Of a DNA stretch of 48,034 bases, positions 42,190-47,546 are shown in pieces; position 1 is the stretch's first letter, and every line of letters begins with the position of its first letter. The position numbers were made by a program, and so were the translations under genes. The stretch covers positions 449,700 through 497,733 of the forward strand of contig NZ_GL883077.1 in NCBI RefSeq assembly GCF_000204015.1, written 5' to 3'. This stretch comes from Asticcacaulis biprosthecium C19 (GTDB lineage: Bacteria > Pseudomonadota > Alphaproteobacteria > Caulobacterales > Caulobacteraceae). The notes beneath the pieces are model-generated. The model ran no database searches. It saw nothing but the letters and a program-made list of their open reading frames with translations, and had not been told where the DNA came from.

Positions 42190-43395
42190 ATGAACATTCA
42201 CGAACACCAAGCCAAGGCCGTCCTCAAGGAGTTCGGCGTCGCCGTTCCGCGCGGCTTCCCCGCCTATTCACCTCAGGAAGCCAAGAAGGCCGCCGAAACC
42301 CTTGCCAAGGAGGCCGGCTCGAAGGTGTTCGTGGTGAAGTCGCAGATCCACGCCGGTGGCCGCGGCAAGGGCCGCTTCGAAGGCCTGGGCCCCGACGCCA
42401 AGGGCGGCGTCCGCGTCGTCAAGACGCCGGACGATGTCAAGAGCAATGCCGATGAGATGCTGGGCCGTGTCCTGGTGACCATCCAGACCGGCCCCGCCGG
42501 CAAGCAGGTCAATCGCCTGTACATCGAAGAAGGCGCCGACATTGCGAAGGAACTGTACCTGTCGCTGCTGGTTGACCGGGTATCGTCCAAGGTTTCGGTC
42601 GTTGCCTCGACCGAAGGTGGGATGAGCATCGAAGACGTCGCTCACGACACCCCCGAAAAGATTCACTCCTTCACCATCGACCCGGCGACCGGCGTATGGC
42701 CGACCCACGCCCGTGCCCTGGCCCAAGCCCTGAACCTGAAGGGCGACCTGGCCAAGCAAGGCGCCAAGCTGCTGTCGCAGCTTTATGCCGCCTTCACGGC
42801 CAAGGACATGGATATGCTGGAGATCAACCCGCTGATCGTCACGGGTGATGACAAGCTGCTGGTCCTGGACGCCAAGTGCTCGTTCGACAGCAACGCCCTG
42901 TTCCGTCATCCGGACATGGTTGAGCTGCGCGACGTCACCGAAGAGGACGAGAAGGAAATCGAAGCCTCCAAGTACGACCTCAGCTACATCGCCTTGGACG
43001 GCGAAATCGGCTGCATGGTCAATGGCGCCGGGCTGGCCATGGCCACGTTGGACATCATCAAGCTGTACGGTTCCGAACCGGCCAACTTCCTCGACGTCGG
43101 CGGCGGCGCCACGACCGAAAAGGTGACAGCGGCCTTCAAGATCATTACGTCCGACCCCAAGGTGAAGGGCATCCTGGTCAACATCTTTGGTGGCATCATG
43201 AAGTGCGACATCATCGCCCAGGGCGTGATCGTGGCCGTCAAGGAAGTCGGGCTGAAGGTGCCGCTGGTCGTGCGCCTGGAAGGCACCAATGTCGAACTCG
43301 GCAAGAAAATTCTCAATGAAAGCGGCCTGAACGTCATTGCCGCCGACGACCTGGCCGATGCCGCGGCCAAGATCGTCAAGGCTGTGAAGGGTTAA
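42190..43395 (+). CDS. sucC: Succinyl-CoA synthetase (ADP-forming) beta subunit
   Basis: SucC, 401 residues, carries the ATP-grasp domain and the CoA/succinate site at the interface with SucD, making ATP from succinyl-CoA. The N-terminus [17 protein letters not shown] is typical. [14 protein letters not shown] (about 48-61) is the nucleotide loop. LEINPLIV (about 210-217) supplies metal ligands, and NFLDVGGGA and NIFGGI mark the C-terminal domain. It opens the sucCDAB operon. In several relatives mdh precedes sucC; it is not here. Confidence 0.98.
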
Positions 43396-43400
43396 GTTTA

Positions 43401-44288
43401 ATGTCCGTTCTGATCAATTCCGAAACCAAGGTCATCTGCCAGGGCCTCACCGGCTCGCAAGGCACCTTCCACACCGAACAGGCCATCGCCTACGGCACCA
43501 AGATGGTCGGCGGCGTCACGCCCGGCAAGGGCGGCCAGACCCATGTCGGCCTGCCGGTCTATGACACCGTCGCCGAGGCGAAGGATCGCACTGGCGCCAC
43601 CGCCACCGCCATCTACGTCCCGCCCCCCTTCGCCGCTGACTCGATCCTCGAAGCGATCGAAGCGGAGATGGAACTGATTGTCTGCATCACCGAAGGCATT
43701 CCGGTGCTGGACATGGTCAAGGTCAAGAAGGCTTTGCAGGGTTCCAAGTCGCGCCTGATCGGGCCGAACTGCCCCGGCGTTCTGACGCCCAACCAGTGCA
43801 AGATCGGCATCATGCCGGGAAATATCTTTAGCCCGGGCAGCGTCGGTGTGGTATCACGGTCCGGCACGCTCACCTATGAAGCGGTGTTCCAGACGACCAA
43901 TGCCGGCCTCGGCCAGACGACGGCTGTGGGCATCGGCGGCGACCCCGTCAAGGGCACCGAATTCATCGACGTGCTCGAGATGTTCCTGGCCGATGACGCC
44001 ACCAAGTCGATCATCATGATCGGTGAAATTGGCGGCCAGGCGGAAGAAGACGCGGCGCAGTTCCTGCGCGACGAAGCCAAGAGGGGCCGTATCAAGCCCA
44101 TGGCCGGCTTCATCGCGGGCCGCACGGCGCCTCCGGGCCGCCGCATGGGCCATGCCGGCGCCATCATTTCCGGTGGCAAGGGTGGGGCCGAAGACAAGAT
44201 CGCGGCTATGGAAGCCGCGGGCATCCGCGTCGCGCCGTCGCCGGCCGCGCTGGGTGAGACCCTGCTGAACGTCCTGAAAGGACTGTAG
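43401..44288 (+). CDS. sucD: Succinyl-CoA synthetase (ADP-forming) alpha subunit
   Basis: SucD, 295 residues, binds CoA and carries the phosphorylated histidine of the enzyme. The N-terminal [14 protein letters not shown] stretch is the CoA-binding loop. [10 protein letters not shown] is near residues 120-129, and the active-site histidine lies in MGHAGAI near 248-254. It starts five bases after sucC; AAGGG inside the sucC end serves as ribosome binding site. Translation is probably coupled. Confidence 0.98.
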
Positions 44289-44301
44289 GCAAAAAGACTT
44301 C

Positions 44302-44337
44302 GCCCGGGTGGGGTTTCCACGTGAAATCCCGCCGGGC
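44302..44337 (+). other. Long hairpin after sucD
   Basis: GCCCGG (44302-44307) pairs with CCGGGC (44332-44337). Inside, GGGGTTT (44310-44316) pairs with AAATCCC (44324-44330), including one G-T, around the loop CCACGTG. No T-run follows, so it may be a 3' stabiliser, a leaky terminator or a repeat rather than a full terminator. Confidence 0.5.
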
Positions 44338-44367
44338 ACAATGAAGACTACTTCGCAGAGGGATCGT

Positions 44368-44459
44368 GAGGAGTCTCGCGTTCCTTAAGCGAGACCCTCC
44401 GCAGCGCAGCTGCGGTAAGGGCGACTGCCCGCCCGAGCTTATGCGAGGAAAGCCCTCGC
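44368..44459 (+). other. Cluster of three hairpins in the sucD-sucA gap
   Basis: Stem 1: GAGG-A-GTCTCGC (44368-44379) with GCGAGAC-CCTC (44389-44399), 11 bp with one bulge. Stem 2: CCGCAG (44399-44404) with CTGCGG (44410-44415). Stem 3: GCGAGG (44443-44448) with CCTCGC (44454-44459). Together with the neighbouring hairpins almost the whole 276-base gap can fold. I see no coding frame or promoter that explains this. Confidence 0.5.
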
Positions 44460-44478
44460 GGCGCTTGAGCGAAAACTA

Positions 44479-44551
44479 ACCAGGGTGTCGTAATTGGCCC
44501 TGGTCACATTTTAGAAATGGAAAGGCAGACGGTGTCGTAGTTGGCCGTCTG
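44479..44551 (+). promoter_or_regulatory. Tandem hairpins with conserved 12-nt loop before sucA
   Basis: Hairpin A: ACCAGGG (44479-44485), loop TGTCGTAATTGG, CCCTGGT (44498-44504). Hairpin B: CAGACGG (44526-44532), loop TGTCGTAGTTGG, CCGTCTG (44545-44551). The loops match in 11 of 12 positions while the stems differ at most positions and yet both pair perfectly. Hairpin B ends 13 bases before the sucA ATG at 44565. This is the pattern expected for a repeated RNA-binding site or small aptamer that controls sucA translation. I do not recognise it as a named motif. Confidence 0.65.
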
Positions 44552-44564
44552 GGCGGTACATAAC

Positions 44565-47546
44565 ATGGCGGATGATTCCGGCCGGCTGAACCAGGTCTTC
44601 GCGGAGACCTCCTTCCTCTACGGCGCCAATGCGGTGTTCATAGAGATGATGCAGGAGAAGTGGGCACAAGACCCCAACTCCGTGCCCCCCGAGTGGCGGG
44701 CCTTCTTCGACTCCCTGATGGACAAGCCCGATACGGTCAAGGCCAATGCCGAGGCCGGTTCGTGGGCCACCGATGTCACCGCCCCGCGCGATGAGAACAT
44801 CTCCGCCATGGACGGCTTCTGGCCAGCGGTGCAGGCCAAGGTCGAAAAAGGCATTGCCCAGAAGGCCGAAGCGTCGGGCAAGCCGGCGTCGCAAGCCGAA
44901 CTGCAGGCCGCGTCGCGCGATTCGATCCGCGCCCTGATGCTGATCCGCGCCTTCCGTATTCGCGGTCACCTGCAGGCCAATCTCGACCCGCTGGGTATCG
45001 AACAGCCCGCCCAGAACCCCGAATTGACCCCCGAATACTGGGGCTTCTCGGCCGCCGACATGGACCGCCCGATCTTCATCGACGGTGTGCTGGGCCTGGA
45101 ATCGGCGAGCCTGCGTGAAATCATCCAGATCGTGCGCCGCACCTACTGCGGCAATATCGGCGTCCAGTACATGCACATCGCCGACCCGGCTGAAAAGGCC
45201 TGGGTCCAGGAGCGCATCGAAGGCCGCGACAAGGAAATCACCTTCACCAAGGAAGGCAAGATCGCCATCCTGAAGAAGCTGATCGAAACCGAAGGTTTCG
45301 AACGTTTCTGCCATCGCCGCTTCCCTGGCACCAAGCGCTTCGGCCTCGATGGCGGCGAAGCCATGATCCCGGCGCTGGAGCAGATCATCAAGCGCGGCGG
45401 CGCCCTGGGCGTCAAGGACATCATCTTCGGCATGGCCCACCGCGGCCGCCTCAACACCCTGGCCGGGGTGATGGGTAAGCCGTATCGCGCCATCTTCCAC
45501 GAATTCCAGGGTGGTTCGACCCTGCCGACGGACATCGAAGGTTCGTCGGACGTGAAGTACCACATGGGCGCTTCGTCTGACCGCGCCTTCGACGGCAACA
45601 CCGTCCACCTGTCGCTGACCGCCAACCCGTCGCACCTGGAAATCGTCAACCCGGTCGTTCTGGGCAAGACTCGCGCCAAGCAGTCCTTCCACCACAAGGC
45701 CAATCCGGCCCTGCTGGCCGGCGAAAAAGGCCCGGATCGCGGCAGCGCCGTCGGCCTGCTGATCCACGGCGATGCGGCCTTTGCTGGCCAGGGCGTCGGC
45801 ATGGAGTGCTTGGCGCTGGCGGACCTCAAGGGGTACAAGACCGGCGGTACGATCCACTTCATCATCAACAACCAGATCGGCTTCACCACCAGCCCGCGCT
45901 TCTCGCGTTCGTCGCCCTATCCGTCCGACGTCGCGCTGATGGCTCAGGCGCCGATCCTGCACTGTAACGGCGACGACCCCGAAGCCGTGGTGTTTTCGGC
46001 CAAGATGGCGACCGAGTTCCGCCAGAAGTTTGCCAAGGACGTCGTCATCGACATGTTCTGCTACCGGCGCTTCGGCCACAACGAAGGTGACGATCCGACC
46101 TTCACCCAGCCGATCATGTACGCCAGGATCAAGGACCATCCGTCGACGCGCGACCTGTACGCGCAACGTCTTGTCAAGGAAGGCACCTGCACCCAGGCCG
46201 AGTACGACCAGTGGCTGAAGGACTTCGAAACCTTCATGGACGAAGAGTTCGACGCCGGTAAGGCCTATCGCGCCACCAAGGCCGACTGGCTGGACGGCAA
46301 GTGGTCGGGTCTGGGTCTGCCGGAAGAGGACGAGCGCCGCGGCATCACCGCCGTGCCGCGCGCCAAGCTGGTGGAAATCGGCAAGAAGATCACCACCATC
46401 CCCAACGACCTCGATGCCCACCGTACCTTGAAGCGGGTCATCGAAGCGCGCAGCCAGATGATTTCGAGCGGCGAGAACCTCGACTGGTCCACCGCCGAAT
46501 CGCTGGCCTTCTGCTCGTTGCTGGATGAAGGCTTCCCGGTGCGTCTGTCGGGTCAGGACTCGATCCGCGGCACCTTCTCGCAACGCCATTCCGGCTTCGT
46601 CGACCAGACGACCGAAGAGCGCTATTTCCCGTTCAACCACATCCGTGAAGGCCAGGCGCTGTACGAAGGCATCGACTCGGCCCTGTCGGAAGAGGCGGTT
46701 CTGGGCTTCGAATACGGCTACTCGCTGGCCGACCCGAACACCCTGACCCTGTGGGAAGGCCAGTTTGGCGACTTCGTCAACGGCGCCCAGGTCATTATCG
46801 ACCAGTTCATCAGTTCCGGTGAACGCAAGTGGCTGCGCATGTCCGGCCTGGTCATGCTTCTGCCGCATGGCTACGAAGGCCAGGGTCCGGAGCACTCCTC
46901 CGCCCGCCTCGAACGGTTCCTGCAGATGTGCGCCGAGGACAATATGCAGGTCGCCAACTGCACGACGCCGTCCAACTATTTCCACATCCTGCGCCGCCAG
47001 ATCCACCGGCCCTTCCGTAAGCCGCTGATCCTGATGACGCCGAAGTCGCTGCTGCGTCACAAGAAGGCGGTCTCGCAACTGAGTGAGATCTCCGAGGGTT
47101 CGTCCTTCCACCGCGTCCTGCATGACGACGCCGAGCGCCGTCCCGACGTTGCCGGCCTCAAGCTGGTACCTGACGACAAGATCCGCCGCGTCGTGCTGTG
47201 TTCGGGCAAGGTCTATTACGACCTGCTGGAGGACCGCGAAAAGAAGCAGATCAAGGACGTCTATCTGATGCGCCTTGAACAGTTCTATCCGTGGCCGATG
47301 AAGTCACTGATGACCGAGCTGGGCCGTTTCGCCAATGCCGAACTGGTCTGGTGCCAGGAAGAGCCGAAGAATATGGGCGGCTGGGCTTTTGTCGATCCGT
47401 GGCTGGAACTCACCCTGGACCGCCTGAAGGTCAAGGCCAAGCGGGCGCGCTATGTCGGCCGCCCGGCCTCGGCTTCGACGGCCGCCGGCCAGATGAGCCG
47501 CCACCTCAAGGAACTCGAGACGTTCTTGAACGAAGCTTTCGCGTAG
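44565..47546 (+). CDS. sucA: 2-oxoglutarate dehydrogenase E1 component
   Basis: SucA, 993 residues, is the thiamine-diphosphate-dependent E1 subunit that decarboxylates 2-oxoglutarate and passes succinyl groups to lipoyl-SucB. Visible features are the N-terminal NAVFIEMMQEKWAQDPNSV docking region, YMHIADPAEKAWVQERIE, MAHRGRLNTL, GSSDVKYHMG, FTTSPRFSRSSPYPSDVA and RRFGHNEGDDP (cofactor region), and QDSIRGTFSQRH, LLPHGYEGQGPEHSSAR and LMTPKSLLRH towards the end. I use the ATG at 44565; a start at 44541 adds eight residues that lie in hairpin B. It sits 276 bases after sucD behind structured RNA. Confidence 0.97.
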   Translation: MADDSGRLNQVFAETSFLYGANAVFIEMMQEKWAQDPNSVPPEWRAFFDSLMDKPDTVKANAEAGSWATDVTAPRDENISAMDGFWPAVQAKVEKGIAQKAEASGKPASQAELQAASRDSIRALMLIRAFRIRGHLQANLDPLGIEQPAQNPELTPEYWGFSAADMDRPIFIDGVLGLESASLREIIQIVRRTYCGNIGVQYMHIADPAEKAWVQERIEGRDKEITFTKEGKIAILKKLIETEGFERFCHRRFPGTKRFGLDGGEAMIPALEQIIKRGGALGVKDIIFGMAHRGRLNTLAGVMGKPYRAIFHEFQGGSTLPTDIEGSSDVKYHMGASSDRAFDGNTVHLSLTANPSHLEIVNPVVLGKTRAKQSFHHKANPALLAGEKGPDRGSAVGLLIHGDAAFAGQGVGMECLALADLKGYKTGGTIHFIINNQIGFTTSPRFSRSSPYPSDVALMAQAPILHCNGDDPEAVVFSAKMATEFRQKFAKDVVIDMFCYRRFGHNEGDDPTFTQPIMYARIKDHPSTRDLYAQRLVKEGTCTQAEYDQWLKDFETFMDEEFDAGKAYRATKADWLDGKWSGLGLPEEDERRGITAVPRAKLVEIGKKITTIPNDLDAHRTLKRVIEARSQMISSGENLDWSTAESLAFCSLLDEGFPVRLSGQDSIRGTFSQRHSGFVDQTTEERYFPFNHIREGQALYEGIDSALSEEAVLGFEYGYSLADPNTLTLWEGQFGDFVNGAQVIIDQFISSGERKWLRMSGLVMLLPHGYEGQGPEHSSARLERFLQMCAEDNMQVANCTTPSNYFHILRRQIHRPFRKPLILMTPKSLLRHKKAVSQLSEISEGSSFHRVLHDDAERRPDVAGLKLVPDDKIRRVVLCSGKVYYDLLEDREKKQIKDVYLMRLEQFYPWPMKSLMTELGRFANAELVWCQEEPKNMGGWAFVDPWLELTLDRLKVKAKRARYVGRPASASTAAGQMSRHLKELETFLNEAFA

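Follow-up and report, generated by a model that had tools for sequence, protein, structure and literature searches.

The leader of sucA, which encodes the E1 subunit of 2-oxoglutarate dehydrogenase, carries at least two small hairpins with the loop UGUCGUNRUUGG in each of the 25 Asticcacaulis genomes compared, and the stems of these hairpins change while their pairing is kept. The best reading of the element, to which comparison of the sequences leads us to give about an even chance, is an Asticcacaulis-specific cis-acting translational operator, that is, a repeated hairpin site for a putative trans-acting factor, probably a protein.

Two hairpins between sucD and sucA

The window, by which we mean the whole stretch of 48,034 nt that was analysed, contains sucC, sucD and sucA in one direction, and both hairpins lie inside the 276-nt gap between sucD and sucA. 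The features of the locus are as follows.

42190–43395, same direction as sucD and sucA: sucC (NCBIfam model over its cut-off)
43401–44288, same direction as sucC and sucA: sucD (NCBIfam model over its cut-off)
44479–44504, + strand: hairpin 1, 7-bp stem 44479–44485/44498–44504, loop UGUCGUAAUUGG at 44486–44497 (sequence, model, fold and relatives)
44520–44525, + strand: GAAAGG, Shine–Dalgarno-like word adjoining hairpin 2 on its 5' side (putative role)
44526–44551, + strand: hairpin 2, 7-bp stem 44526–44532/44545–44551, loop UGUCGUAGUUGG at 44533–44544 (sequence, model, fold and relatives)
44552–44564, + strand: spacer from hairpin 2 to the sucA start, the expected site of the ribosome-binding site, which is weak here
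44565–47546, + strand: sucA, 2-oxoglutarate dehydrogenase E1, the downstream gene (ORF; NCBIfam NF006914 and TIGR00239, both equivalogs over cut-off)
From 47634, running off the window end: ORF with a lipoyl domain after sucA, probably sucB

When the sequence was re-read, the hairpins were found as ACCAGGG-TGTCGTAATTGG-CCCTGGT (44479–44504) and CAGACGG-TGTCGTAGTTGG-CCGTCTG (44526–44551), with 47 nt between the loop starts, loops alike at 11 of 12 positions, seven Watson–Crick pairs in each stem and 13 nt from the end of hairpin 2 to the sucA ATG at 44565, a layout that a first, sequence-only reading of this DNA had given correctly. The same reading had the stems differing at most positions, which is true of four of the seven pairs; pairs 1, 2 and 4, counted from the loop, are identical in the two hairpins.

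Both hairpins were recovered by RNA folding, in the leader and in short segments. Taken by itself, hairpin 1 is far more stable than shuffled versions of it (z −3.3), and so is the region of 332 nt that runs from the sucD stop into sucA (z −4.7), which holds other strong hairpins; neither a 64-nt nor a 105-nt segment around the two hairpins outdoes its shuffles (z −0.5 and −1.1), and no alternative fold was seen in the window's leader. A covariance model, R1, scores hairpin 1 at 38.9 bits (E 1.4e-7 within the window) and hairpin 2 at 44.4 bits (E 5.6e-9 within the window), these being scores from a model built on 34 hairpins that include the window's own two. Between 44200 and 44700 neither a sigma-70-like promoter nor, in a search confined to the window, an intrinsic terminator-like site was found, and the latter result makes control of initiation likelier than attenuation. 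Further strong hairpins are predicted 3' of the sucD stop (44300–44400), with no terminator-like T run, and are possible 3'-end or processing structures.

Chance occurrence and uniqueness in the genome

A single hairpin of this size is ordinary, since this strand of the 48-kb window has five perfect hairpins with a 7-bp stem and a 12-nt loop and random windows have a mean of 5.2. The sucA pair is the only one among these five to share a loop, and none of 100 first-order Markov windows produced two such hairpins in tandem, no more than 150 nt apart, whose loops agree at 11 or more of the 12 positions. The pattern TGTCGTNNTTGG has 26 matches in the genome against 18 for a reversed control. The genome-wide search for the loop with flanking complementarity that had been suggested found a stem of more than three pairs at both sucA sites and nowhere else, and the other 24 matches all lie in open frames of at least 203 codons.

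The sequence just 5' of hairpin 1 (44414–44475) is palindromic, rich in G+C and REP-like, and it is repeated: 18 further sites in the genome, spread over both strands, match it, and four of these were aligned. By eye, the leader of another Asticcacaulis genome (G009, locus L034) also has this repeat. The earlier reading had named a loop lying within an unrelated dispersed repeat as evidence against its claim, and this is not what is seen: loop and stem together occur at sucA alone in this genome, although the sequence just upstream is dispersed. The repeat stops just before hairpin 1, and the hairpins as members of a dispersed repeat were accordingly rejected.

These results bear on a reading of the hairpins as a DNA-level or coding feature, whether an inverted-repeat operator, a short upstream ORF or a mobile repeat. 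Their arms are indeed inverted repeats, ATGGAAAGG...TCGTAG in the window can be read as a short ORF, and the adjoining upstream sequence is dispersed, yet the hairpin itself is not dispersed, and we regard such a feature as very improbable. The short ORF was set aside on inspection by eye, its ATG and in-frame stop not being conserved in relatives, and the DNA operator was rejected on the ground that the arms change with pairing preserved, which a DNA operator does not need.

Conservation and covariation within Asticcacaulis

SucA relatives were found in all 61 genomes searched, 25 of which, that of A. biprosthecium C19 included, belong to the same genus. One genome (G024, locus L037) has three copies of the hairpin, with loops starting at −121, −79 and −32 from the ATG, and among 80 named loci the element is present in all three that bear the name Asticcacaulis (A. 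machinosus, a MAG and A. benevestitus), the A. benevestitus leader being identical to that of one of the genus genomes (L039). Over two hairpins in each of 25 genomes, ten positions of the loop UGUCGU-N-R-UUGG are invariant, one is free and one is always a purine. Position 7 may be any base and changed nine times on the sucA tree (six and three times in the two hairpins); position 8 is A or G only and also changed nine times (three and six). At fourfold-degenerate sites of sucA the same genomes differ by a median of 42% and by up to 54%. The hairpins were gathered by the loop pattern, so that a copy with a changed loop would escape and the invariance is partly a matter of selection; it is not wholly so, because leaders cut at the sucA start regardless of the loop have the same loop in the same place.

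The stems behave differently from the loop. In a gap-free alignment of the 34 distinct hairpins, 92.0% of the 238 cells of the 7-pair stem are paired, against 71.9% in shuffles, and six of the seven pairs have two-sided changes. The covariation score is 0.591 against 0.205 (sd 0.027) in shuffles, none of 500 shuffles reaching it, and registers slid along the alignment score at most 0.191. The cells behind these figures are sequences, not events, and events on the sucA tree of the 25 genomes are fewer. In hairpin 1, pairs 3, 4 and 5 changed five, four and seven times on that tree. In hairpin 2, pairs 4, 5 and 7 changed four, one and two times and pairs 1, 2, 3 and 6 never vary, so that independent events there are few. 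All seven pairs of hairpin 2 are standard in all 25 genomes; in hairpin 1 five pairs are solid (24 or 25 of the 25), pair 6 is present in 18 and pair 7 in seven, and some of its stems appear by eye to be bulged. The G–C pair that closes the loop is unchanged.

The claim that a conserved loop on compensating stems marks an RNA element in the sucA leader is thus supported, having stood up to the computational checks suggested with it, the loop being invariant at 10 of 12 positions in every genome of the genus and the stems covarying strongly. At the level of the alignments, the comparison shows a stem kept for its pairing rather than its sequence and a loop kept as sequence. Cis-regulatory structured RNAs are recognised in general by a fold that compensatory changes preserve ahead of orthologous genes, and such a fold is found here.

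The position of the proximal copy is nearly fixed, with 18–21 nt from the end of loop 2 to the ATG in all 25 genomes; neighbouring loop starts are 42–109 nt apart across the genus. By eye, GAAAGG stands directly 5' of hairpin 2 in all 25 leaders, and it is invariant in an alignment (A2) of 11 of them. In many relatives AGG or AAGG follows straight after hairpin 2 (by eye), which would place the hairpin between two Shine–Dalgarno-like words.

Two side observations, both made by eye, concern the same leaders. Six loci (L038–L042 and L123) share a conserved block, TCAARCCCYAAGGGTGGTT, between hairpins 1 and 2, with complementary arms whose sequence varies from genome to genome (GTCC/GGAC, GCTC/GAGC); this block could be another hairpin or an operator in the DNA. 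Nine relatives (L048–L056) have a promoter-like TTCTCA-N17-TATAGR about 9 nt 5' of the first stem, which suggests a separate sucA transcript; the two hairpins would then be nearly the whole leader in these relatives.

Distribution beyond the genus

The sequence-only reading had called for sucD–sucA gaps to be collected across Caulobacterales and a covariance model to be built from them. The covariation it looked for is present within the genus; an element common to the order is not, as among the genomes examined it occurs in Asticcacaulis only. Within the genus, every one of the 25 genomes yields the sucA element to model R1, with a top hairpin of 42.5–46.7 bits, and the model's best match outside sucA scores 28.7 bits; two distal copies, in G020 (27.9 bits) and G024 (28.5 bits), are at background level. 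The model was also run on 119 genomes of the family (16 of the genus and 103 others) and on samples of 289 genomes from the class and 299 from the phylum, samples that overlap and include the genome of A. biprosthecium C19 itself. Outside the genus nothing in the family scored above 28.2 bits, nothing in the class above 30.1 and nothing in the phylum above 32.2, in runs with stricter filters that scored 24 to 60 first-look candidates per genome and may miss weak relatives.

Of the matches listed away from sucA, 18 from the genus, nine of 13 from the class, four of 26 from the family and four of four from the phylum were inspected. Open frames of at least 80 codons enclose 30 of the 31 from genus, class and family, the remaining one (L216) overlapping the start of a 506-codon ORF, and all four from the phylum lie in frames of at least 137 codons. 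The inspected matches look like coding sequence, though an open frame says little where DNA is rich in G+C. The loop sequence by itself is not rare: across the order, 91 of 200 genomes contain the bare pattern GTGTCGTNRTTGGC, more often than the reversed control among the matches listed, and this excess probably reflects coding for Val-Val-Ile/Val-Gly.

In 12 genomes from other genera of the family the sucA leaders showed no hairpin of this loop type, and among 24 genomes from other families of the order the loop is absent from the stretch taken in each of the 13 that were covered. Across the 77 named loci that do not bear the name Asticcacaulis, the model scored at most 17.6 bits; two of these loci, L100 and L155, are weak negatives, with only 25 and 78 bases upstream of the match. 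Since it was found in Asticcacaulis alone, the element may have arisen or been rebuilt recently.

Comparison with known RNA elements

The comparison with Rfam that had been proposed gave no family match at gathering score, in the window or in six relative loci. With the threshold relaxed to E 5, a single match appeared in each of two leaders, to the sRNA families SorY and ES173, both far below gathering score and away from the hairpins. The models for the sucA RNA motif, which we take to be RF01070, for sucA-II and for sucC went unmatched at gathering score and, in these two leaders, at E up to 5. The three are candidate cis-regulatory RNAs that take their names from these TCA genes and come from other bacteria, sucA-II (RF01758) from Pseudomonadales and sucC (RF01759) from gamma-Proteobacteria according to the accessible part of the source (PMC2864571).

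To judge from this comparison, the closest analogue in design is the group of ANTAR-target RNAs, the dual-hairpin antiterminators of EutV, NasR and AmiR, which likewise consist of two small hairpins in tandem. In the part of the account available for these RNAs (PMC3369931), residues of the terminal loop and the closing pairs are conserved, stem changes are tolerated if pairing is restored, and the hairpins are recognised by a protein dimer. Judged against that partial account, the differences are several: ANTAR targets have hexaloops with A1 and G4, whereas all 34 distinct sucA hairpins have the 12-nt UGUCGUNRUUGG; ANTAR linkers measure 5–12 nt (Enterococcus faecalis eut genes), against 16–83 nt here between the 7-bp stems; and ANTAR targets have an overlapping terminator, of which none was found at 44200–44700. 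If a C–G pair closed inside the sucA loop, the inner hexaloop would be GUNRUU. ANTAR proteins were found in 21 of the 25 genomes of the genus and not in G009, G016, G023 and G024, which keep the hairpins. An ANTAR target was rejected, as loop, linker and terminator all differ.

A riboswitch-like element, in which the loops, alone or as a pair, would bind a TCA metabolite or an enzyme cofactor and so alter ribosome access, is in our view unlikely. The likeness is to guanidine-II (mini-ykkC), whose loop sequence is ACGR. In the available part of its description (PMC9481103) this riboswitch has two highly similar conserved-loop hairpins, which the two small hairpins before the sucA start codon recall, and loops of 4 nt, where those of sucA are of 12 nt and widely variable in spacing. 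No Rfam match to guanidine-II was found in the whole window at gathering score or in the leader at E up to 5. The invariance of 10 of 12 loop positions and of the closing pair, and the position before a single metabolic gene, are as a ligand sensor would have them. Spacings of 42–109 nt and three copies in one genome nevertheless show that a fixed pair is unnecessary, the window's leader offers neither an alternative fold nor a terminator, and each hairpin has only about 14 conserved nucleotides, at one gene of one genus. Riboswitch classes are usually more widely distributed than that.

Two protein-bound systems were also compared. Targets of CsrA/RsmA consist of several hairpins near the ribosome-binding site, where the protein represses translation, and carry GGA in the loop; the sucA hairpin loops have no GGA, and a CsrA gene (PF02599) was found in none of the 25 genomes of the genus and in three of 14 control genomes, so that this candidate was rejected. 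In the coat or polymerase translational operators of MS2-type phages, a repressor protein binds a loop-specific hairpin that adjoins the start codon; the sucA element differs from them in its tandem copies, in its loop and in serving a chromosomal metabolic gene.

Proposed mechanism and alternatives

A fixed loop, a kept stem shape, two to three copies and a proximal copy at a nearly fixed distance from the ATG argue together for repeated sites at which a trans-acting factor acts on translation initiation. Our working model is that this factor, most likely an RNA-binding protein, would recognise the folded loop and the top pairs. At the loop apex N–R follows a U, which fits the UNR consensus of a U-turn, a turn that would display the loop bases to such a partner. 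Hairpin 2 is expected to lie inside the ribosome footprint, and a factor bound to it would cover the landing site of the ribosome, with GAAAGG on one side and the start region on the other, and so alter sucA translation, repression being the simplest case. Hairpin 1 could add occupancy through avidity. The level of SucA, the E1 subunit, might in this way be set apart from those of SucC and SucD, encoded directly upstream. The variable spacing and the third copy in one genome favour independent binding sites over one rigid fold, and kissing of the two loops through their N–R bases was rejected by reasoning, N and R being non-complementary in many of the sequences. A protein is favoured by the constraint on 11 of the 12 loop positions and by a genome in which no intergenic perfect complement of the loop was found.

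The last point concerns a small RNA as the partner, with U-turn-like loops serving as landing sites for an antisense RNA whose loop pairs with UGUCGU or UUGG, which we hold to be distinctly unlikely. The loop does contain UNR, and several copies would increase the rate of pairing. U-turn loops accelerate RNA–RNA pairing, and in the accessible part of the source the motif is YUNR (PMC6562991). The sucA loop departs from it, having GUNR with an invariant G before the U, and the perfect complements of the loop in the genome (the opposite strand of the 24 matches away from sucA) all lie in frames of at least 203 codons; a search of this genome for perfect complements over the full length of the loop thus gave no intergenic partner.

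A structural role with no dedicated partner, such as protection of the mRNA, a mark for processing between sucD and sucA or a GAAAGG standby site held open for the ribosome, we think improbable. It would account for the invariant GAAAGG beside hairpin 2 and the nearly fixed distance from hairpin to ATG, and unrelated G+C-rich hairpins are predicted, by eye, before sucA in other Caulobacteraceae; it leaves unexplained why 10 of 12 loop bases are constant in both copies while the stems drift.

Significance and further observations

We rate the motif as new and its kind, cis-regulatory leader hairpins, as already known. Two large surveys (PMC11109978, PMC8632094) mention neither sucA nor Caulobacter in their main text. 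Asticcacaulis and sucA gave no hit in the full text of the openly licensed literature, and Asticcacaulis with riboswitch or sRNA gave nothing on a sucA element there, as judged by titles and the starts of abstracts. A bolder and more doubtful idea, which we put forward tentatively, is that these hairpins form the RNA side of a control system devoted to 2-oxoglutarate dehydrogenase, as a new class of small riboswitch for a TCA metabolite or as an operator for a new RNA-binding regulator, which might be a TCA enzyme that controls its own mRNA. 2-Oxoglutarate dehydrogenase E1 stands where energy metabolism and nitrogen assimilation part ways. With two natural copies under strong selection at a single gene of a compact leader, the element makes clean bait with which to look for a new RNA-binding regulator or ligand; CsrA was not found in this alphaproteobacterial genus. 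As an element of a single genus it may also offer a case of RNA control recently gained or turned over at a core metabolic gene.

Some minor features of sucA leaders were noted by eye. In some lineages of the genus a TATA-like word lies between the hairpins, so that a shorter transcript could exclude hairpin 1. The unrelated hairpins predicted in the sucA leaders of Brevundimonas, Caulobacter, Phenylobacterium and others (L085–L125) are often preceded by CCTATAT or ACTATATTT, and several Brevundimonas loci share a conserved block, CGGTCATGACC...GGGACGTGACGA.
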